DNA from: Timaviella obliquedivisa GSE-PSE-MK23-08B
GTDB taxonomy: Bacteria; Cyanobacteriota; Cyanobacteriia; Elainellales; Elainellaceae
Assembly (NCBI GenBank): GCA_019358855.1
Contig: JAHHII010000001.1
Span: 62,001 to 126,000, forward strand
DNA: 64,000 nucleotides
Direction of reading: 5' to 3'
Under the pieces are notes generated by a model. It was not told where the DNA came from. It searched no databases and saw only the letters and a program-made list of their open reading frames with translations. Numbering within the stretch: position 1 is the first letter of the stretch; the number at the start of each line of letters is the position of its first letter. The position numbers and the translations under genes were made by a program. Positions 9,186 through 59,642 of the stretch are shown here, one piece after another.

Positions 9186-10601
9186 CTACGGTGCCGGTAC
9201 AAAATCGTAGCCGTAGCCCGATCGCCCTCCAGCTTGAATGACAACAAGCTGCATTGGCTGATTCCGATCGCCCGATGGTAAAAACTTGACTGTACCCGTT
9301 GCGCCTTGGAACGAGAAACCGGGTCGGGCAATGGTTTGCAAGACGGCTTGGCGATCGCCGCCACTCTTTAACCCCTCCACTAGCGTCATCGCTGCATCGT
9401 ATGCCATTGCCGTTCGCCAGTTCACATCACCCCCCCAAAGCTGCCGCGACTCCTGGGCAAAAGGCGCGTTAGGATTCGACAATAAAATCCACGGAACCGC
9501 CACAACCATACCCGCTGCCGATTCACCCGTTTGCAACACCTTGGGAGTATATAAACTGTCTCCCCCCAAAACTTGCAGCCGCTGCCGGTTCGCCGCAATC
9601 ACCTCTAGCGCTGGAGTGAGCGTGGCGGTGTTGGCTGCCAGTACTAACACCTGTGCGCCCTGCTGGAGAGCTTGCTCGACGGACTCAGCCGCTCTAAATG
9701 CTGGACTTGCCAAGTCATATTCAGCCGCGATCGCCCCCCCGTCGCTAGTCAATGCTGTCGTAAATTCTTCTTTAAGAGACTTGCTGTAAGAGCTTGCAGA
9801 ATTGTAATAAACTGCCGCATTTTGCTTTTGCAGGGTGTTGAGCATATAGCGCGAAAGTGCTGATGCCGTAAAGCGATCGCTGGGTACTGTCCGGTATACT
9901 GCATTCCCCAGACTCGAAATTTGTACCGAGGTACTGGTCGGTGAAATCATCACCAGTCCTCCTTTTTGATAAATCGCTCCGGCGGCTAGAGTGGCATCAC
10001 TGCCAAAATGCCCAATCACACCTAACACTGAAGCATCCTGAACTAACGCTGTTGCGACCTCCTTAGACGTGTTAGGGTCATTATCATCGTTAACAATCAG
10101 CACCTTTAACGGTGTGCCGTTGATGCCGCCCGCCTGATTCACTTGGGACTGGGCTTGAGCCACCCCCCGCAAGATTTCCAATGCTGGGTTGATAGATTCA
10201 GTGGCAGGAACAGAAACCGCAATGGTATAAGCCGTCTGAGCGCCAATTTTGGCATTGTTCAGGTAAATCAAAGATTCTGGGTCATTGCGATCGCTTTGCA
10301 AGGCAGCTTGGAAAGAGGCAATCGCCCCTGACCAGTTCTGAGCCGCGATCGCCGCCACTCCATTTTTCTTATCAGTCGAAGCTCCCTCTACTACGAGCAG
10401 CTTCTCGCCTAAACTCAGGCGATCTTTCAGAGATAAAGAATTATTAGGATCAGAGTTAGCGTTAGGCGCTTGGGCGGGATTAGTAGGCAGGGGTTGCCCT
10501 GCTCCGAAGCGATTGGCAAACCACCATAACCCGCCTCCAATTAAAGCTAAGGTAACCAACAGAGACAAAATGAGCGCAGGAGTATCGTTTTTCTGAGACA
10601 T
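9186..10601 (-). CDS. Amino-acid-type ABC transporter substrate-binding protein, membrane-anchored
   Basis: From ATG 10601 the product has 471 residues. Residues 9-28 form a membrane segment (LILSLLVTLALIGGGLWWF), then a low-complexity linker and a short TPR-like stretch, then a type I periplasmic-binding fold typical of LivJ/LivK (INPALEILRGVAQAQSQVN, LKVLIVNDDNDP, VLGVIGHFGS, MISPTSTSVQ). No permease or ATPase gene is adjacent; the upstream neighbour, 44 bp away on the same strand, is a serine/threonine kinase. It may act as a ligand sensor for that kinase rather than in transport; this is inference. A TTG ten codons upstream is a less likely start. Confidence 0.85.
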   Translation of the reverse strand: MSQKNDTPALILSLLVTLALIGGGLWWFANRFGAGQPLPTNPAQAPNANSDPNNSLSLKDRLSLGEKLLVVEGASTDKKNGVAAIAAQNWSGAIASFQAALQSDRNDPESLIYLNNAKIGAQTAYTIAVSVPATESINPALEILRGVAQAQSQVNQAGGINGTPLKVLIVNDDNDPNTSKEVATALVQDASVLGVIGHFGSDATLAAGAIYQKGGLVMISPTSTSVQISSLGNAVYRTVPSDRFTASALSRYMLNTLQKQNAAVYYNSASSYSKSLKEEFTTALTSDGGAIAAEYDLASPAFRAAESVEQALQQGAQVLVLAANTATLTPALEVIAANRQRLQVLGGDSLYTPKVLQTGESAAGMVVAVPWILLSNPNAPFAQESRQLWGGDVNWRTAMAYDAAMTLVEGLKSGGDRQAVLQTIARPGFSFQGATGTVKFLPSGDRNQPMQLVVIQAGGRSGYGYDFVPAP

Positions 10602-43268: not shown

Positions 43269-44993
43269 TTAAATTTTGAGATGCGCGATCGCTGACTTTA
43301 CAAAGGTTTCTGCTCGTTGCTGACTCTGACGCAAACTTTCCTCAAGGCGATCGCACATCTGCATCAGTTCATCTACTTTAGTTACAATGCGCTTTTGTTC
43401 AGCAAGAGGTGGGAGGGGAATCGGCAAATTACGAATCTGCTCTCTAGTAATATTTTTCATCGAATCACTAGTCCCCGTGCCTTCTCCCCCATAGTATTGA
43501 CGTGCTAAATCACTGTTGTTGCAAAGATTAAAAAATCTCTTTTCCAAGCAATCAGGAAACAGAACTCTAAGAGTTTTATCATTTAGCAAAAGTTGAGGTG
43601 GTGTATGTTCGACAACTACACTTTTCCCTACAAGCTCGCTTGTGTTAGCTCGTGACATAATAAAATCATTAGCCTTAATTTCAGACTCTTTTCTTGGCTC
43701 TATACTGGCAGGTAAAGCTTTATTTTCACTGGGGTTAAATCTATTCCAGGACACAGCACTGATTTTTATCACTCCCCATTCAGATTTATTTTTAGGACGT
43801 TTCTCACATTGAGGACTTGCTCCTGCTTCAATGTCCAGAATTAGATTACCAAATCTTTTCCAAGCCCAAGTGTTTGGAATTTCATAGGGCAAATCGCCAT
43901 CTTCAATAGGAAGTGTTAAAGCATCTCGAATTTTCTTTGCTTCGATTAAAGTTTTCTTCTCGTCTGTAACTCTTACTAGTAAATCAAGAACAGATTCATC
44001 AGTGAAATCTTGAGGAAGGAGTTTACCTCTCACCGCCAACTGCAAAACCGATCGCCTCAAATCATCCACATCTTTAGGATCTTGGCTAAGCTCACACCAG
44101 TTATCACGAACGATCGCCCATCCTTGCTCCAATTTCTCATCTGTTTCGGCACTCATGAGAGCAGCGATCGCGCTTTTCCTCAGCTTTTGCCGTAGGTTTT
44201 CTTGCGTTTGATTGGCGAGGTGAAGGCGATCGCATAGCGCCATCAATTCATCTACTTTTGCAACAATTCGTTTCTGTTCAGCTAAAGGTGGAAGAGGATA
44301 AATAAAGTTTTGAATCGATTGAAGTCCTACGTTAGGTTGGGTTGTTTTGTTAATATATCTGTCAATCTCGGACTTAACCAGTTTGGATAGAGAGTAATAA
44401 TAAGAGTATTTTGGTTCTACATAACCATGAAAATTCTTGATGGTAGCGCAAGAGTAAGAAGCTAAAAAATCAATATCAACCTCAACTAGCCTATTCTCTC
44501 CAATGGTTCCATATCTCGGAAAAATAATATCCCACTTAGTAGGCTGTACTTTTTTTCTTAATCGCTCAAAATCCTCAACGGCAATCTTCTTAGCTCTTTC
44601 AAAGTCAATGACATTATCCTTTTTAAAGTCTCTAGGTGAGACATAGGGTATTCCTTCAGAAACTTCTGTAGGCATCTTATGATCAATATCACCTATGTGC
44701 AAAGCTATATCATTCCACCGACACCAACACCAATTATCAGGTAAAGAATAAGGCTGCTCATCTTCTTGAACTGGAGTGAGAGGACGTTGCTTTGCAAGCT
44801 TTTTAGATTTCTCAAGCTTTTGCTTCTCAATCACTATTTGATTTCTTAATAGTTCAGCAGGTTCATCTTCGGGATTTTGGGGAACTAATTTTCCTCGGAC
44901 TGCCAAATCGAGGATGAGCGATCGCAATTTTGCAATACCGTTGGGCGATTGGGCGATCGTGTTGAAGTTTTCGAGGAAGGTTTTGAGATTCAT
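43269..44993 (-). CDS. hsdS: Type I restriction-modification specificity subunit HsdS
   Basis: A 574-residue protein with two target-recognition domains. The conserved PLPPLAEQKRIVAKVDELM (about 245-263) and its second copy PLPPLAEQKRIVTKVDELM near the C terminus mark the two helical spacers, and LAVRGKLVPQN and LAVRGKLLPQD mark the starts of the two halves. The first 27 residues (MNLKTFLENFNTIAQSPNGIA) also occur as a fragment 770 bp upstream. It partners HsdM and HsdR. Each TRD recognises half of a bipartite target; the sequence cannot say which. Confidence 0.93.
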   Translation of the reverse strand: MNLKTFLENFNTIAQSPNGIAKLRSLILDLAVRGKLVPQNPEDEPAELLRNQIVIEKQKLEKSKKLAKQRPLTPVQEDEQPYSLPDNWCWCRWNDIALHIGDIDHKMPTEVSEGIPYVSPRDFKKDNVIDFERAKKIAVEDFERLRKKVQPTKWDIIFPRYGTIGENRLVEVDIDFLASYSCATIKNFHGYVEPKYSYYYSLSKLVKSEIDRYINKTTQPNVGLQSIQNFIYPLPPLAEQKRIVAKVDELMALCDRLHLANQTQENLRQKLRKSAIAALMSAETDEKLEQGWAIVRDNWCELSQDPKDVDDLRRSVLQLAVRGKLLPQDFTDESVLDLLVRVTDEKKTLIEAKKIRDALTLPIEDGDLPYEIPNTWAWKRFGNLILDIEAGASPQCEKRPKNKSEWGVIKISAVSWNRFNPSENKALPASIEPRKESEIKANDFIMSRANTSELVGKSVVVEHTPPQLLLNDKTLRVLFPDCLEKRFFNLCNNSDLARQYYGGEGTGTSDSMKNITREQIRNLPIPLPPLAEQKRIVTKVDELMQMCDRLEESLRQSQQRAETFVKSAIAHLKI

Positions 44994-45474: not shown

Positions 45475-45723
45475 TTATTCACCCCAATCAAACTTGCGTT
45501 GTTCTGTAAGCCGAGCATCGATTTCATCCAGGCTCAAATTTCCCCAACTTCCTTTTGTCTCTTTCAAAATCTTCTCAACCTCAGCAACTCTTTTCTCATA
45601 GTTAACATCACCGTTCTGATCTTTAGATCCTTGTGAAATTAAATCAATAAAGTCACTAACCTGCTGTAAAGTCGATTCTGGAAGGTTATGTAATTTTGTA
45701 ATAATAGTGTCTCGCATTGTCAT
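45475..45723 (-). CDS. Orphan antitoxin-like protein
   Basis: From ATG 45723, with GGAG nine bases upstream, the product has 82 residues: MTMRDTIITKLHNLPEST, a helix that resembles DUF2281-type antitoxins, and a C-terminal tail GSWGNLSLDEIDARL ending in FDWGE. The tail is closely similar to that of the VapB-like protein at 47732-47995. No toxin gene is adjacent. The upstream open frame includes a fragment of hsdS and is not part of this gene. Confidence 0.7.
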   Translation of the reverse strand: MTMRDTIITKLHNLPESTLQQVSDFIDLISQGSKDQNGDVNYEKRVAEVEKILKETKGSWGNLSLDEIDARLTEQRKFDWGE

Positions 45724-45761
45724 AATAATCATCTCCTTTTTTTTCATGAGTGAAGAATAAG

Positions 45762-45837
45762 GCGATCGCAATTTTGCAATACCGTTAGGCGATTGGGCGA
45801 TCGGGTTGAAGTTTTCGAGGAAGGTTTTGAGATTCAT
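45762..45837 (-). pseudogene. hsdS 5-prime fragment ending at a HIP1 site
   Basis: Starting at ATG 45837, the sequence encodes MNLKTFLENFNPIAQSPNG and on to KLRS, matching the first 25 codons of hsdS almost exactly. The match ends at GCGATCGC (45762-45769), where hsdS continues with its own coding sequence (HIP1 at 44918-44925) but this copy runs into the antitoxin leader. The fragment is not likely to be translated as a useful protein. Confidence 0.85.
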
Positions 45838-45859
45838 CAAATAATTTTATGACTAGGAT

Positions 45860-47340: not shown

Positions 47341-47724
47341 TCAAGGTACTTCATAAGGATTCACCATAAGCAATCCATCAATTTGTGTAAAGTCACGGAT
47401 GTTTCTCGTCACCAATCTCAACCCATCGACAAGTGCTGTTGCAGCAACTATTGCATCAGGAAGCTTAATTTTATGTGCTTTTCTAATTTTAATCGCCTGT
47501 TCCGCAACCTCTAAACTAAGCGATATCTCTATCAAACTAGCAAGTAACTCTCTTGCTTGAGCTTCAGCCAATTTGGGCTGTTGAAAGCCTAAAAGCTCAA
47601 TCTTGGAAACAATAGAATATGCACCCTCTCCCACCAGACCATCTTCCAAAAACGTATTCCCTCTCTCATTTAAAGACCCATTTAATTGATAAATCAAAAT
47701 ATTGCTATCGAAAAGATACTGCAT
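47341..47724 (-). CDS. vapC: VapC-type PIN-domain toxin
   Basis: From ATG 47724 the product has 127 residues with YLFDSNILIYQL, SKIELLGFQ, IKLPDAIVAATAL and LVTRNIRDF carrying the PIN acids. It starts seven bp after the upstream VapB-like gene. The longer open frame upstream overlaps VapB and is not preferred. Confidence 0.9.
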   Translation of the reverse strand: MQYLFDSNILIYQLNGSLNERGNTFLEDGLVGEGAYSIVSKIELLGFQQPKLAEAQARELLASLIEISLSLEVAEQAIKIRKAHKIKLPDAIVAATALVDGLRLVTRNIRDFTQIDGLLMVNPYEVP

Positions 47725-47731
47725 GGCACTC

Positions 47732-47995
47732 CTATTCACCCCAATCTTCTCGACGCTGGCGATCGAGTTCAGCATCTATTTCATCCGGTGTTCGACTGCC
47801 CCAGCTTCCACGAGTAGATATTAATACCTTCCTCGCTCGCTCTCTTGCTTCAGTCAAAGTCTGAGGTGCCGAATGGTTTTCTGGCTGGGTTGCTTCAGGC
47901 TTAAGCTGATCCATCACATGACTCATCACCTGCCATTGTTCTTCAGGCGTTAATTGATCGATGTTATTCAAAACCTGCTGGAGTAAAGCGTTCAT
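47732..47995 (-). CDS. VapB-like antitoxin, directly after hsdM
   Basis: An 87-residue protein whose start codon is one base after the hsdM stop (TGATATG), so it is translated with hsdM. Its C-terminal GSWGSRTPDEIDAEL and terminal DWGE are shared with the orphan antitoxin at 45475-45723. It precedes vapC on the same transcript. Confidence 0.82.
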   Translation of the reverse strand: MNALLQQVLNNIDQLTPEEQWQVMSHVMDQLKPEATQPENHSAPQTLTEARERARKVLISTRGSWGSRTPDEIDAELDRQRREDWGE

Positions 47996-47996
47996 A

Positions 47997-49478
47997 TCAC
48001 TTTCTCGGTGTAGTAGATTGCTCTAAACACAATTGTAAGGCAGTCTTCAAAGCCATTCGCGCCTCGTCTGCCGCCGCCGCCGCCGCCTGATATTGCTTCA
48101 ACAGAGCAATCGGGTCTTCATGAACATTCTCCGGCGTATTCGGGTTTTTAATATCCAGGTTGTAGCCATTAGCAGCGATCGCTTCAACCGACACTTTCCA
48201 AGCAAACTCAGTTTCCTCCCGGTGATCCCACCAGGCTTTCTCCACCTCAAACTCCTCAATTCGCATCGGCTTCGTCTTGTTATAAGACTTCGCCCCCGGC
48301 GGGTAAGGATGCTCGTAATACCAAACCTCAGCCGTTGGCGTGCCCTTCGTAAAAAACAAAATATTAGTCCGAATGATAGTGTACGGACTAAACACCCCAT
48401 TCGGCAGCCGCACGATCGTATGCAAATTACAGTCCCGCAGCAGCTTCTCCTTAATCCGCGTCTTAATCCCTTCGCCAAACAACGTCCCATCTGGCAGCAC
48501 GATCGCCGCCCGACCTCCCGGCTTCAGCAACTCCATCACCAGCACCAAAAACAAATCCGCCGTCTCCCGCGTCTGAAACTCCGTCGGAAAACCCCGCTCA
48601 ATGCCATCCTCCTCCATGCCCCCAAACGGCGGATTCGTCACCACAATATCCACCTGATCCTCGCGCCCATAGTCTCGCAGCGGCTTCCGCAGCGTATTAT
48701 CATGGCGCACATTCGTTGGCACTTCAATGCCATGCACCATCATATTGGTCACACAAAGCAGATGCGGTAGCTGCTTTTTCTCCACCCCCAAAACGCTCCG
48801 CTTCACCTGCTCCAAATCTTTCGGTGATTTGATTTGCTGCTTCAAATGCTCGTAGGCATAGGTCAAAAAGCCGCCCGTTCCACACGCCGGATCAAGCACT
48901 TTCTCGCCCAACTGTGGGTTCACCCGATCGATCGCAAACTGAGTCAGCGCCCTGGGCGTATAAAACTCTCCCGCATTGCCTGCACTTTGGAGATCCTTCA
49001 GAATCTGCTCATACAGATCGCCAAACAAATGCAGCGTTTTCGACTGGTTAAAATCAATGCTTGCATTAATCTTGTCTACCACCTGACGCAGCAACGTCCC
49101 CGACTTCATGTAGTTGTAGGCATCCTCAAACACACTGCGCAGCAGGAGCGATCGCTGCTGTGCCACACCCTCCAAATCCTTCCCATCTAGTGCCTTAAGC
49201 TGAGGAAACAATCGCCCATCAATCACTTCTAGCAGATCCGTTCCAGTGGGCGTATCCTTTCCTAACTTAGTGCTATCTGCCCAATCATTCCACCGCAACC
49301 CAACTGGAATTGGCGACTCATACTCATCTACATCCAGTTCCAACTGCGCATCCTGGTCGCTAAAAATCTTATAAAACAGCATCCAGCCCAACTGTCCAAT
49401 CCGCTGGGCATCGCCATCCACCCCCACATCCTTCCGCATGATGTCTTGAATAGATTTGATAGTGGCGCTCAGTGACAT
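47997..49478 (-). CDS. hsdM: Type I restriction-modification DNA methyltransferase HsdM
   Basis: A 493-residue N6-adenine methyltransferase. The N-terminal helical domain is followed by motif I LDPACGTGGFLTYA (about 197-210) and motif IV VTNPPFGGMEE, both intact. It protects target adenines and forms the methylase with HsdS. The C terminus (LLKQYQAAAAAADEARMALK) occurs again in the chimera at 47180-47314. It is separated from hsdR by a MITE at 49505-49654. Confidence 0.95.
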   Translation of the reverse strand: MSLSATIKSIQDIMRKDVGVDGDAQRIGQLGWMLFYKIFSDQDAQLELDVDEYESPIPVGLRWNDWADSTKLGKDTPTGTDLLEVIDGRLFPQLKALDGKDLEGVAQQRSLLLRSVFEDAYNYMKSGTLLRQVVDKINASIDFNQSKTLHLFGDLYEQILKDLQSAGNAGEFYTPRALTQFAIDRVNPQLGEKVLDPACGTGGFLTYAYEHLKQQIKSPKDLEQVKRSVLGVEKKQLPHLLCVTNMMVHGIEVPTNVRHDNTLRKPLRDYGREDQVDIVVTNPPFGGMEEDGIERGFPTEFQTRETADLFLVLVMELLKPGGRAAIVLPDGTLFGEGIKTRIKEKLLRDCNLHTIVRLPNGVFSPYTIIRTNILFFTKGTPTAEVWYYEHPYPPGAKSYNKTKPMRIEEFEVEKAWWDHREETEFAWKVSVEAIAANGYNLDIKNPNTPENVHEDPIALLKQYQAAAAAADEARMALKTALQLCLEQSTTPRK

Positions 49479-49688: not shown

Positions 49689-52043
49689 TCAAGCACCCGG
49701 ATCTTCGTAAAGCAGTTGCTCTAGCTCTCGAATTGCTGCCTGATACTGCTTCTTACCTCCAAAACTTCCGACCAGTTCCACCGGAGTTCCCAGCGTTGTA
49801 AACGGATCAAGCTGCAATACCCTGACATTCTCGATCGCCACTACTCCTTGATCGGCATATTTCTCTAGCAGCGCCACCAAAACCGCCCGCGCCATTTCAC
49901 CATACTTAGCAAACACATCTCGCTTCTGCACTTGTTTAACCCGTTCTCTGCGCGTCAGCGGCGGGCGATCGAACGCCACATGGCAAATCAAATCAAAAAG
50001 GTCATAATCCTTGCCCACCATGTCCTCCAGCGCTTCTAAAATTACGCCCTGCTCTCTCAACTCATCCAAAATTGCTTGCTTGCGATCGGCAATCTGCCAC
50101 TGATGTAAGAAGCGATCGAGAGACTGATACGCCTCATTGACCGTGCGGCGAGTGTAGTCTTTTAAGGATTCCGTCGTCAGCTTGCCATCCTTGTCGTAAT
50201 AGCTCACCCGCTCCTTTGCCACCACAAACTCTTGACGGCTCACCTGATATTTAAAACTTACTCCTGTGCCATTCTCACGTCCGGGTTCACCCTCATCTCC
50301 GCCTTCAGTTCCCTCGCGTCCCGGATCAGCAGGCTTCTTCTCTTTGCCAAAATCCTCATCCTGAAGCGGCGTTCCATCCCAATCTGGGTCATCAAAAAGC
50401 AGAGTCGCCCCCCGAAAATCAATAATTGTAAAAAAGTTTTTGCCATAATCGGGGCGCAACCGAGTTCCCCGCCCAATAATTTGCTTAAACTCCGTCATCG
50501 ACTGAATGCGCTGATCCAACACAATGACCTGACAAGTCTGAGCATCTACTCCCGTCGTCATTAGCTTAGAAGTCGTCGCAATCACCGGATAGGTTTCTTT
50601 AGGATTAATGAAATTATCAAGCTGTGCCTTACCCTCCTTCTCATCTCCGGTAATTCGCATTACATAGCGATGATCTTTTAGCACTAACTCTCGATTCAGA
50701 TCCACCTGAGTCAAAGCTTCCCGCATCCGTTCCGCATGGTCAATGTTCTCGCAGAAAATAATAGTTTTCCGCATCGGATCGCCGTCATGAAGAAATTGGC
50801 TGACATACTCCGCCACCTGCTGAGTCCGTTGGTCGAACACAATGTTGCGATCGTAGTCTCGCAGGTTGTAGTCGCGTTCCTCAATCCGTTGCCCCCGATC
50901 ATCAGATTCCCCTGCCTCTGGAGTCCAGCCCTCTAGATCTTTATCTAAACCGACCTGAATTCGTCGGAACGGAGCCAGAAAACCATCCTCAATTCCTTGT
51001 TTAAGCGAGTACTGAAAAATTGGCTTACCAAAGTAATCAATATTCGAGACGTATTTCGTTTCTTTGGGCGTAGCCGTCAGACCGACCTGCACCGCCGTTG
51101 AAAAGTAATCCAGCACCTGCCGCCAATTAGAATCATCTGCCGCACTGCCCCGGTGACACTCATCAATCACGACCAAATCAAAGAAATCGCGATCGAACTT
51201 TTCGTAAAGATTATCTCGCTCGTCATTGCCAATGATTGCCTGATACAGCCCCAGATAGATTTCGTAGGAAGTATTGATCCGTCCCATTTCATCAACAAGT
51301 TTGCGATCGAGCTTGCTCATGACCTCGCCAAACGGACGAAAATCATTAATGATCGTTTGATCTACCAAGGAATTGCGATCGGCAAGAAACAAGACCCGTT
51401 TTGCCACCTTTGTCTTCCACAACCGCCAGATAATATTGAACACTGTAAAAGTTTTACCCGCTCCCGTCGCCATCACCAACAAACAACGCTTCTGTCCACG
51501 GGCGATCGCCTCAACGGTACGATTTACTGCAAGCTGCTGATAATAACGAGGTTCCTTCCCACCAATCTCAATAAAATAAGAAGAAGTCAACAAATCCTCA
51601 TTAGCATTTTGTAGATCTTGCCACTGCTTATACCGTTCCCACAGTTCATCCGGCGATGGAAACGCATCCAAACTAATCTGCTGTTCCACTGGGCTGTAGG
51701 TGCCGCTTCGGTCATGGAACACAAACGCATCTCCATTAGAAGAAAAGACAAACGGCACTTGCAAAGCCGCCGCATAGCCTAAAGCCTGTTGAATTCCTGC
51801 CCCAACGCTGTGGCAATTGTCTTTTGCTTCAATGACCGCGATCGGTTGATTGGGCTGATAGAACAGCAAATAATCTGCAAACTTCTTTTTTCCTCGACCC
51901 GTTAACTGACCTCGAACCAGCATTTGACCATCGGTGAAATAGTACTCCCGACGCACCTGGCTCTTTTTCCAACCTGCATCATAGATTGCAGGCGTAACGT
52001 AGCGATCGCAGATATCAGATTCGCTGAGGTCTTTCTTGCTCAT
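49689..52043 (-). CDS. hsdR: Type I restriction endonuclease subunit HsdR
   Basis: A 784-residue EcoEI-like HsdR. Residues 30-120 contain the PD-(D/E)xK nuclease region (FADYLLFYQPNQPIAVIEAK). The SF2 helicase motor follows: Walker A LVMATGAGKTFTVF, DECH box VVIDECHRGS, motif III VGLTATPKE and motif VI IIGRGTRLRPD. The C terminus matches the EcoEI_R_C domain. It translocates DNA and cleaves unmodified sites. All catalytic motifs are intact. The operon runs hsdR, MITE, hsdM, TA nest, hsdS. Confidence 0.95.
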   Translation of the reverse strand: MSKKDLSESDICDRYVTPAIYDAGWKKSQVRREYYFTDGQMLVRGQLTGRGKKKFADYLLFYQPNQPIAVIEAKDNCHSVGAGIQQALGYAAALQVPFVFSSNGDAFVFHDRSGTYSPVEQQISLDAFPSPDELWERYKQWQDLQNANEDLLTSSYFIEIGGKEPRYYQQLAVNRTVEAIARGQKRCLLVMATGAGKTFTVFNIIWRLWKTKVAKRVLFLADRNSLVDQTIINDFRPFGEVMSKLDRKLVDEMGRINTSYEIYLGLYQAIIGNDERDNLYEKFDRDFFDLVVIDECHRGSAADDSNWRQVLDYFSTAVQVGLTATPKETKYVSNIDYFGKPIFQYSLKQGIEDGFLAPFRRIQVGLDKDLEGWTPEAGESDDRGQRIEERDYNLRDYDRNIVFDQRTQQVAEYVSQFLHDGDPMRKTIIFCENIDHAERMREALTQVDLNRELVLKDHRYVMRITGDEKEGKAQLDNFINPKETYPVIATTSKLMTTGVDAQTCQVIVLDQRIQSMTEFKQIIGRGTRLRPDYGKNFFTIIDFRGATLLFDDPDWDGTPLQDEDFGKEKKPADPGREGTEGGDEGEPGRENGTGVSFKYQVSRQEFVVAKERVSYYDKDGKLTTESLKDYTRRTVNEAYQSLDRFLHQWQIADRKQAILDELREQGVILEALEDMVGKDYDLFDLICHVAFDRPPLTRRERVKQVQKRDVFAKYGEMARAVLVALLEKYADQGVVAIENVRVLQLDPFTTLGTPVELVGSFGGKKQYQAAIRELEQLLYEDPGA

Positions 52044-56531: not shown

Positions 56532-59500
56532 CTATGCGTTAATTTTTTGTTCAACTGCCTGCAATAATTCCCTCAAACAGTCCTCTAAGGTTGCGCCTTG
56601 TGTCATGTCTAAGTTGATAGTTTTCATGTCATAGAGGGTGGCGGTGAGTGTATCTATGATGGCTCTTATTTTGGTGTAAAGATTGAGTTCTGTTTGTGCT
56701 CTAGGCAGGTTAGCTGAGGATTTTAATTGTTTTAGTTTAGTGTCTAGGGCTTCAATTTTTTGATCCCAGTAGCTCACATAGTCCATGCTATCTATCACGT
56801 CATAGATTTTGGCGCTGGGTAACACAACAGGAAAGATGCGATCGCGCAAGGCTTCATTATCATGTGCGTTCTCAGCAATATTGACCAGTTCATACATGCA
56901 GTTTCTTTTCTTTAAATACTCGTCACTAATTACGGTAATAATGCATTTTCCACGTCCTAGCCATTCCATAAATTCTTTAGCACTAGCCTTGAATTTAAGA
57001 TCGCGGATATCGCGGATAATCGTAATCCCTTGAGACTGAAAATATTGATCGAGAGTGTGGGCGATCGCCTCACTTTCCCCCTTGTCCCAAGCGTAAGAAA
57101 TAAAAACTTCTCGTTCAGTTAGGCGGCGATCGGGAATGCCCAGATCCCAAAGATTTTGAGAATTATGAGGATCTGAAACACGGCGTTCTCTTCGCTCTTG
57201 GATTGGCTCGACCCCATCTAACAATTGTCTTAAGTTAACTTTGCGTTTTAGTTTACCAATGAAATAGGTTTGCTCTCCTGCTTCTTCTGCACTAATTAAA
57301 TCTTCACAGTTTAGTAAGATGGGTGGGTCTTCCTGGTAGAGCAAGTATTCGGTGATGCCCAAGCGAGGAATAGTTCTATGAATTTCATCAAACTGGCTAC
57401 GAATGATGCTTAAAAAGCTGCGACGGGTCGCAGGATTGCCTTTCACACGAATAGAGATGAGTTTATCTTCGCGATCGGCACGAATGAGAGCAGGATTATC
57501 TCGTTCTTTAAGAACAACGCCGCTACGCCAGTAGGTACGTTGACTAATTTTACTATTCATACGGACAATAAAACGAGAAATAATACTGGGTGGCAACACG
57601 TTGTAATGATATTGAAAGGTCAGAGAGCCTTCCCATTCTCCGGTGTAGGGTTCTTCTTTGGGAAGGAGACCAGGAATCAAAAATTTCTCATTAGAGAAAC
57701 CATCTAGGTCAAAGCAGAGATCAAACTTGCGCATGATGCCAATGAGAAAACTATGTTTGTCACGAGGATAGCGATGAGAATCAAGAATGTTCAGCAAATG
57801 AGACTGGTTGAGAATTCCATTATGAACTGTGAAGAGTTCACTATTGTTAAGGATTTTGTAAACGCCGTTAGTTACCCATTCAGGATTGAGGACATTGGTA
57901 TCGGCGAATTCTGGGCTGAGGCGAATGTCGTCTTGAAAATTAAGGGCAATGCCCAGGTTATGGAGCAGATGCAGCAGATCAGTTTGGCTTTGGCTATCGA
58001 GAACATCAGATTGAAGGCAGACTTGCTCGTAATCGTGCCGTGAAAGAAAGTCTTGAGTGCGTTTTTCGAGTTCTTCTTTAACGGTGAACCAGGTTTGGGG
58101 CAAAGGTTCGTGGAGATGGGGGAGTTGGCTAAGCTCTTGGATCAAGGTGGCTTTGAGGGTAGTAATACCTTGGTTGGCTTTGCAAGAGGTTTCGAGAATG
58201 GCGTGAAGGTTGGGGTATTTTTGGCTTAAGCCGCGTTGATCAATGTCAAGAGGTTGATGATCACATTGGTTGCCGACGAGAATGATAGGCGAGTCGCCGC
58301 CAAAGCTGGCAATAATTTGCAGCCAATATTCAAGCTGGTTTTGAACTTCACTTTGGCGGCAGTCGATGACGAGCAGATAAAGGCTACGTTTGCTTAGAAA
58401 AAACTGGTGGGTAGCGTGCATAATTTCCTGTCCGCCAAAGTCCCAGAGGTTAAGCTGTACGCTTTGTTGATTGACTTCAACATTCCAGGGTTGGATGGTA
58501 ATGCCAGGAGTTTTGTTCTGGTAAGGATCGAAGCTATGACCTAGAAGTTGGCGGAGCAGGGAGGTTTTACCAACATCACCTTCACCTACAATTAGCACTT
58601 TGGCTTCGTTGAGAGGGCGGCTAGGTTGGGTGCGAAGTTGGAAGTAGTAGTTGAGAATGGTGGTCGGATCGCCGAAGTTACCCCAGTTACCTAAAATTTC
58701 GGGTGGAATAGATAGCTCTGGATTGGCGGTTAGATCAAGTTTCTCTAGCTTGGTGAGATTGCGGATATCCATGGGCAAGCTTGTCAGTTTATTTCTACTC
58801 AGGTAGAGCGTTGTCAGGTTCGTGAGTTGCGCGATCGCATCGGGCAAGCTCGTCAACTGATTGCTGCGGAGATGAAGCGTTGTCAGGTTTGTGAGTTGAG
58901 CGATCGCATCGGGCAAACTCGTCAGATGATTGTTGCCCACGTAAAGCCCTGTCAGATTTGTGAGTTGAGCGATCGCATCCGGTAAGCTTGTGAGTTGATT
59001 ACCGCCAACATAAAGCTCGGTCAGATTTCTGAGATGAGCAATCGCATTCGGCAAACTGGTTAAATAATTTTCGCGCAGGTCAAGCACTGTGAGGTTAGTG
59101 AGTTGCGCGATCGCCTCGGGTAAACTTGTCAAGTGATTTCTGTTAAGCCTAAGCTTCGTCAGATGGGTGAGTTGGGCGATGGTGTGCGGCAGACTCGTTA
59201 ATTGGTTGCTGCTAAGGGACAGGATTGTCAGGTTAGTGAGTTGTCCGATCGCATCTGGCAAACTCGTCAACTTATTGCTACCAAAGACATCACCCAGATT
59301 AAGTGTGGTCAACTGGGTCAGCAGTCCGATCGCATCCGGCAACCTCGTCAGCCGATTACCGCTGAGATCAAGCGTGGTTAAATGAGTCAACTGTCCGATC
59401 GCATTAGACAAACTCGTCAGGCGATTACTGCCCAAGGAAAGCACTGTGAGATTGGGGAGGTAAGCGATCGCCTCCGGTAAACTGGTCAGTTGATTGTAGC

Positions 59501-59642
59501 TAAGGTCAAGCCCAGTCAGGTGGGAGAGTTGAGCCATCTCTGGTGGCAGAGTCGTCAAACCTCGATCTGAAAGATTCAGTTTAGTCACGCCCTCTTTGGC
59601 AGCGCGATCGATAATCTGTAGAAGCTCGTCAGGGGTTATCAT
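56532..59642 (-). CDS. LRR-Roc-COR-TIR protein (bacterial NLR-like Roco protein)
   Basis: A 1036-residue protein. Residues 18-320 hold thirteen leucine-rich repeats of about 23 residues (LTTLHLRSNQLTSLPDAIAQ), one with a four-residue insertion. The Roc GTPase domain has G1 GEGDVGKTSLLRQ, G3 WDFGGQE and G4 GNQCD, and is followed by a COR domain. The C-terminal TIR domain begins VFISYAWDKGESEA and includes NCMYELVNIAE, where the Glu is at the position of the NADase glutamate. No partner protease or holin is adjacent. Related proteins can be anti-phage sensors; this is an inference. Confidence 0.9.
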   Translation of the reverse strand: MITPDELLQIIDRAAKEGVTKLNLSDRGLTTLPPEMAQLSHLTGLDLSYNQLTSLPEAIAYLPNLTVLSLGSNRLTSLSNAIGQLTHLTTLDLSGNRLTRLPDAIGLLTQLTTLNLGDVFGSNKLTSLPDAIGQLTNLTILSLSSNQLTSLPHTIAQLTHLTKLRLNRNHLTSLPEAIAQLTNLTVLDLRENYLTSLPNAIAHLRNLTELYVGGNQLTSLPDAIAQLTNLTGLYVGNNHLTSLPDAIAQLTNLTTLHLRSNQLTSLPDAIAQLTNLTTLYLSRNKLTSLPMDIRNLTKLEKLDLTANPELSIPPEILGNWGNFGDPTTILNYYFQLRTQPSRPLNEAKVLIVGEGDVGKTSLLRQLLGHSFDPYQNKTPGITIQPWNVEVNQQSVQLNLWDFGGQEIMHATHQFFLSKRSLYLLVIDCRQSEVQNQLEYWLQIIASFGGDSPIILVGNQCDHQPLDIDQRGLSQKYPNLHAILETSCKANQGITTLKATLIQELSQLPHLHEPLPQTWFTVKEELEKRTQDFLSRHDYEQVCLQSDVLDSQSQTDLLHLLHNLGIALNFQDDIRLSPEFADTNVLNPEWVTNGVYKILNNSELFTVHNGILNQSHLLNILDSHRYPRDKHSFLIGIMRKFDLCFDLDGFSNEKFLIPGLLPKEEPYTGEWEGSLTFQYHYNVLPPSIISRFIVRMNSKISQRTYWRSGVVLKERDNPALIRADREDKLISIRVKGNPATRRSFLSIIRSQFDEIHRTIPRLGITEYLLYQEDPPILLNCEDLISAEEAGEQTYFIGKLKRKVNLRQLLDGVEPIQERRERRVSDPHNSQNLWDLGIPDRRLTEREVFISYAWDKGESEAIAHTLDQYFQSQGITIIRDIRDLKFKASAKEFMEWLGRGKCIITVISDEYLKKRNCMYELVNIAENAHDNEALRDRIFPVVLPSAKIYDVIDSMDYVSYWDQKIEALDTKLKQLKSSANLPRAQTELNLYTKIRAIIDTLTATLYDMKTINLDMTQGATLEDCLRELLQAVEQKINA

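Follow-up and report, generated by a model that had tools for sequence, protein, structure and literature searches.

LRRK2 is widely modelled with bacterial Roco proteins, which are not known to have an assigned natural job. The Chlorobium tepidum Roco protein (CtRoco) has been studied as a model GTPase and is not known to act in immunity. Bacterial NACHT/Avs STAND proteins and the Thoeris and SpbK TIR proteins also couple an NTPase or a sensor to a TIR effector and have shown antiphage activity, while such a role has so far only been predicted for the Roco class. Plant TIR-NLRs (Roq1, RPP1, RUN1, L6) combine a sensor LRR, a nucleotide switch, and a TIR domain. LRR-AP-GTPase-COR proteins were predicted to be counter-invader systems by Kaur, Iyer, Burroughs and Aravind, who described at least 24 C-terminal domains, including TIR, and several paralogues per genome (eLife, 2021; PMC8195603). 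The counter-invader idea for TIR-bearing Rocos predates this analysis and is not new; a literature search, whose coverage was incomplete, found no study in which the action of a bacterial Roco against phage had been tested by experiment.

The protein described here is a further member of this already predicted class, with which it shares N-terminal LRRs, an AP-GTPase (Roc), COR, and a C-terminal effector that varies within the family. The 2021 assignment was a sequence-based prediction, to which the present analysis adds a TIR subtype resembling that of plant TNLs and a quantification of effector swapping. The gene is cyanobacterial and forms one intact ORF with an ATG start, read from 59642 to 56532 in the window, i.e., the whole 64,000-nucleotide stretch of DNA that was analysed; it lies on the minus strand, while the original prediction had named no strand. 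Promoter and terminator scans gave results at chance level. Its features are as follows:

56532..59642, minus strand: LRR-Roc-COR-TIR (Roco) gene, 1036 aa (ORF, Pfam domains, AF2 model)
58689..59588, minus strand: 13 leucine-rich repeats, aa 19-318 (Pfam LRR_4/LRR_8, AF2 strands, 69-bp DNA repeats)
58113..58610, minus strand: Roc GTPase, aa 345-510 (Pfam Roc 1e-31, motifs)
57168..58112, minus strand: COR, comprising COR-A 515-660 and COR-B 673-810 (Pfam, match to C. tepidum Roco structures)
56535..57113, minus strand: TIR domain, aa 844-1036, hairpin included (Pfam TIR_2, AF2, PDB matches)
56889..56891, minus strand: codon of Glu918, the catalytic-position Glu of the TIR domain (invariance, Roq1/RUN1 alignment)
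56628..56798, minus strand: helical hairpin, aa 949-1005, between TIR strands D and E (AF2 helices)

The original prediction had called thirteen LRRs, an intact GTPase with G1, G3, and G4, a COR domain, and a TIR domain with a Glu at the NADase position, and all of these held up. Pfam matches to the LRR arrays (3e-57), Roc (348-461, 1e-31), COR-A (515-660, 1e-39), COR-B (673-810, 6e-31), and TIR_2 (846-961, 8e-12) all scored over the curated cut-offs, and E-values of 1e-11 or lower rule out chance matches. In the sequence, the LRR units are countable and 23 aa long, apart from a single 27-aa unit; 69-bp tandem repeats are present in the DNA of this region, and the full-length AF2 model (mean pLDDT 81) has 13 LRR beta strands. 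The Roc domain carries G1 (GEGDVGKT, 353-360), G3 (DFGGQE, 401-406), and G4 (NQCD, 458-461), and G5 too (TSCK, 485-488), with Lys359 of G1 and G3 invariant across 12 TIR-bearing relatives. In the TIR domain, strand A reads VFISYAW (846-852) and alpha-C reads NCMYEL, which contains Glu918.

With Roc followed directly by COR and the nucleotide-binding motifs intact, the protein is a member of the Roco family. The best solved relatives of its LRR-Roc-COR body were structures of CtRoco (PDB 6hlu and 8r4b, E-values 3e-111 to 4e-110), with LRRK1 and LRRK2 ranking behind, and CtRoco was also on top in a full-length fold search. The match to CtRoco stops ahead of the TIR domain. In the plant TIR-NLRs, the TIR domain likewise has a Glu at the catalytic position and, between its strands D and E, a helical hairpin, whereas their switch is an NB-ARC ATPase instead of a Roc GTPase and their order is reversed, with the TIR N-terminal and the LRR C-terminal. 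By Pfam, the NTPase found here is a Ras-like Roc and neither NACHT nor NB-ARC, and the protein would work like an NLR without being one. The likeness to NLRs that had been proposed was supported for architecture and mode of evolution, which combine swapped C-terminal effectors, an invariant TIR Glu, a plant-TNL-like TIR, an intact GTPase switch, and strong purifying selection. The NTPase and sensor of the NACHT/Avs STAND and Thoeris/SpbK proteins differ from those described here, while one NACHT-type protein (L095) bears a relative of the same TIR. No system model in PADLOC-DB 2.0.0 spans the protein, and only weak generic TIR matches were obtained (bSEFIR 8e-8, PDC-S66, SAVED_TIR).

Glu918 was invariant in 30 of 30 TIR relatives located on different scaffolds, as were S849, Y850, D878, F891, M892, G896, G898, C915, P938, Y955, and W959. 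When a TIR profile was compared with solved structures, plant Roq1 and RPV1 were the best matches (1e-11), followed by L6 and RUN1, and Glu918 aligned with the Glu at the catalytic position in Roq1 (WCLEEL) and in RUN1/RPV1; it lies in alpha-C, where the catalytic Glu of TIR NADases lies. Foldseek and VIA-align searches with the TIR model ranked plant TNL TIRs first (RPP1, Roq1, RUN1; Z 13-14), while the other two TIR types that Roco relatives carry, which served as controls, best matched Cat1/TLRs and TIRAP, respectively. The TIR domain is nearest to plant TIR-NLR domains on the basis of a PDB search, as distinct from a phylogeny. Its AF2 model (pLDDT 86) has hairpin helices at 949-972 and 976-1005, and a hairpin between strands D and E has been called typical of plant NLR TIRs in a survey (PMC7075850); the modelled hairpin and the plant hairpins are alike in position, which does not imply homology. 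The same survey cautions that a conserved TIR Glu by itself is no proof of catalysis (PMC7075850), and TIR NADases require self-association as well as the Glu (PMC8635717). Judging from its conserved residues and nearest relatives, the TIR domain is likely NAD-cutting.

To evaluate the exchange of effectors, regions of at most 20 kb each were taken from the surroundings of 40 relatives, whose C-termini were read and placed on a Roc-COR tree with 51 rows. In the host's taxonomic class, Roc-COR matches were common, with 186 of 388 genomes having one, and the TIR type of this protein was rare (16 of 242 genomes). Nine C-terminal classes, which were assigned by reading sequences and are descriptive except that Pfam backs CHAT and TIR for examples, underwent at least 20 changes of class on the tree, with at least five changes for this TIR type alone on strongly supported branches. 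Alternative C-termini were CHAT peptidase-like domains, other TIRs, membrane segments, and short GDNxxGDK tails. L120 and L137 are 91% identical in Roc-COR while their TIRs are unrelated (21%, background identity), and L153 and L159, at 94% identity in Roc-COR, end in a CHAT peptidase-like domain and a membrane segment, respectively; conversely, L127 and L123 share only 35% identity in Roc-COR and 82% in the TIR. On the TIR tree, the TIRs of the two Roco lineages were intermixed with those on NACHT-type, AAA_35, caspase-like, and LRR-only proteins, and AU tests rejected both a single clade of all Roco TIRs (p 7e-7) and a single TIR clade for the Roco lineage of this protein (p 1e-4). The class changes, the mismatched pairs, and the mixed TIR tree show that the effector module moved between backbones repeatedly. 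This swapping supports a role in conflict or cell death; action against phage is a plausible candidate.

A second copy in the same genome (G000:C7, L005 10587-13652, plus strand, 1021 aa) ends in the same TIR and is 79% identical in Roc-COR. This copy lies directly downstream of a ParE/RelE-like toxin ORF (10064-10576). An orthologue in a sister genome of the same genus (G033; L007) is 87-93% identical in segments, and its locus keeps the upstream methyltransferase and amino-acid permease genes while the downstream gene is different. Close to where the TIR ends, an A-run of the orthologue contains a single frameshift (L007, about 2280; draft assembly), and there are breaks at contig ends inside the LRRs. 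Omega between the two (NG86, rough at dS 0.6-1.0) was 0.033 in the TIR, 0.039 in Roc, 0.043 in COR, and 0.079 in the LRR. Purifying selection on the TIR and Roc is strong, and the protein is maintained; the low omega of the orthologue parts points to a draft error or a recent event and not to decay into a family-wide pseudogene. Rapidly evolving LRRs are one criterion for the class of Kaur and colleagues. Between paralogues, omega of the LRR was 0.24, and the LRRs of family members were less identical and indel-rich. Concave LRR residues had an omega of 0.02 between the orthologues, compared to 0.085 for the rest (only 40 codons). No hypervariable LRR face was found between the orthologues, where the concave face was no more variable than the rest; this comparison gives no sign of an LRR arms race within the genus and does not favour a fast-diversifying receptor there.

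The original prediction also placed the gene 4.5 kb from a complete type I RM operon. The distance (from hsdR, with four unrelated genes between) and the three genes were recovered (hsdS 43269-44993, Methylase_S; hsdM 47997-49478; hsdR 49689-52043), but hsdS and hsdM are separated by two further ORFs (45475-45840 and 47341-47775, minus strand): an hsdS-like fragment, which begins by repeating the N terminus of hsdS and continues differently, and a PIN-domain (VapC-like) gene. No match to hsdR was found in the sister genome (assembly 95% complete), where the orthologue and its upstream neighbours are kept, and the RM linkage is incidental for this reason. Among 119 neighbour genes of 12 LRR-Roc-COR-TIR loci, PADLOC matches (threshold 1e-15) were no more frequent than among 144 control genes from 20 regions, in a test that is coarse since genes were called by longest ORF. 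Reading the RM genes as a defence context was consequently abandoned. A context in relatives unrelated to defence had been named beforehand as a result that would speak against a phage sensor, and the 12 loci without defence enrichment are such a context.

A defence-island setting was rejected on the 12 unenriched neighbourhoods and the lack of conservation of hsdR. A conserved partner gene was rejected as well, with no neighbour family recurring in the 12 loci beyond common ones such as TPR and response regulator genes (three loci), and the protein is a single-gene system, if it works at all. A mobile-element origin was rejected too: no relative was confirmed in viral_contigs, and no plasmid record spans more than ~80% of the protein, with matches confined to LRR or LRR-Roc-COR parts.

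The reading that I consider on balance probable, by a modest measure, is a single-gene, cytoplasmic, GTP-switched sensor-executioner, in which a ligand of the LRR acts through Roc-COR on NAD+ cleavage by the TIR, leading to dormancy or death of the invaded cell. The LRR solenoid would hold or sense a ligand, which may be a phage protein, damage, or a host signal, and binding would shift the nucleotide and oligomer state of Roc-COR, by analogy with CtRoco. The rearrangement would bring C-terminal TIRs into contact, the TIR with Glu918 would cleave NAD+ as TIR NADases do, and the loss of NAD+ would send the invaded cell into dormancy or death. The analysis shows the domains, their intact motifs, conservation, purifying selection, and the exchange of the effector module; NADase activity, its coupling to the GTP state, the ligand, and an anti-invader (phage) function are what I infer, and phage sensing is a plausible candidate role. 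GTP turns CtRoco dimers into monomers, and the LRR-Roc linker acts as the hinge of a large motion (eLife, 2024; PMC11052575). This counts against the proposal, as a protein that GTP makes monomeric, if CtRoco is a guide, would make TIR clustering hard to derive. The defence-poor neighbourhoods, the unconserved RM genes, the conserved LRR concave face, and the lack of a PADLOC model count against it too.

Much of this counter-evidence would suit a stress- or development-linked cell-death switch, in which the same LRR-GTPase-TIR machine responds to host signals (damage, starvation, differentiation) and not to phage: the gene is solitary amid housekeeping genes with no defence clustering, it is kept beside the same upstream genes within the genus, and the concave LRR surface of the orthologues is conserved. 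I nevertheless regard this as rather unlikely, as effectors are often replaced on a conserved chassis, which is unexpected for a fixed developmental switch, and the TIR type occurs patchily (the 16 of 242 genomes of the class). Frequent effector replacement is typical of conflict systems.

It is decidedly unlikely that the TIR makes a cADPR-type messenger for a distant receptor, as in Thoeris or plants, rather than depleting NAD+. Plant TNLs signal through TIR products and have the nearest TIRs, which speaks for such a messenger, while the 12 loci have no adjacent or recurrent receptor gene. A search of the same genome for STALD (Thoeris-type SLOG) gave 0 matches, as did its controls, and carries no weight against a distant receptor. 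Least probable of all is a TIR that serves as a scaffold or protein-protein adaptor for a signalling complex assembled by the GTPase, since the Glu is invariant across scaffolds, the domain is nearest in fold and sequence to plant TIRs, several with demonstrated NADase activity, and not to scaffold TIRs, and no conserved partner gene adjoins, even though some TLR TIRs with no reported activity often have a Glu there too (PMC7075850).

If the sensor-executioner reading is extended to its furthest consequence, the protein would represent a bacterial immune receptor class equivalent in function to plant TIR-NLRs, with a Roc GTPase as the switch and an exchangeable prokaryotic TIR closely related to those of plant TNLs, guarding cyanobacteria via ligand-triggered NAD+ cleavage; in this full form it is unlikely. 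Since its GTPase is intact and the active site of its effector is clearly predicted, this protein makes the function of a bacterial Roco addressable by two point mutants (K359 and E918). Near-identical chassis carrying different effectors are natural experiments on whether Roc-COR may act as a general switch for swapped effectors, as in NLRs.

Several minor observations were made among the relatives. L094 (G135:C13, ORF match 1498-2058) has an LRR fused straight to this TIR type, without Roc-COR; its genome also has two LRR-Roc-COR-TIR genes, and L094 is possibly a deletion derivative or a decoy. Short tails of the GDNVAGDK/GDKVGNDKIG type, at the C-termini of close Roco relatives (L008-L013, L142, L148, L152, L155), are putatively amyloid-signalling-like. 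A recurrent C-terminal module, LLQxIxxLRQTAAQFP...DVExEIxKPE..., was present in L139, L143, L144, L146, L150, L154, and L156; L143, the single example submitted to Pfam, gave no match. Lastly, L104, L105, L106, L114, and L119 are ~400-aa proteins with a more distant TIR of this type at the N terminus; after it comes a (K)SILVAGTG(N/K)Y segment, which is conserved and perhaps SLOG-like.
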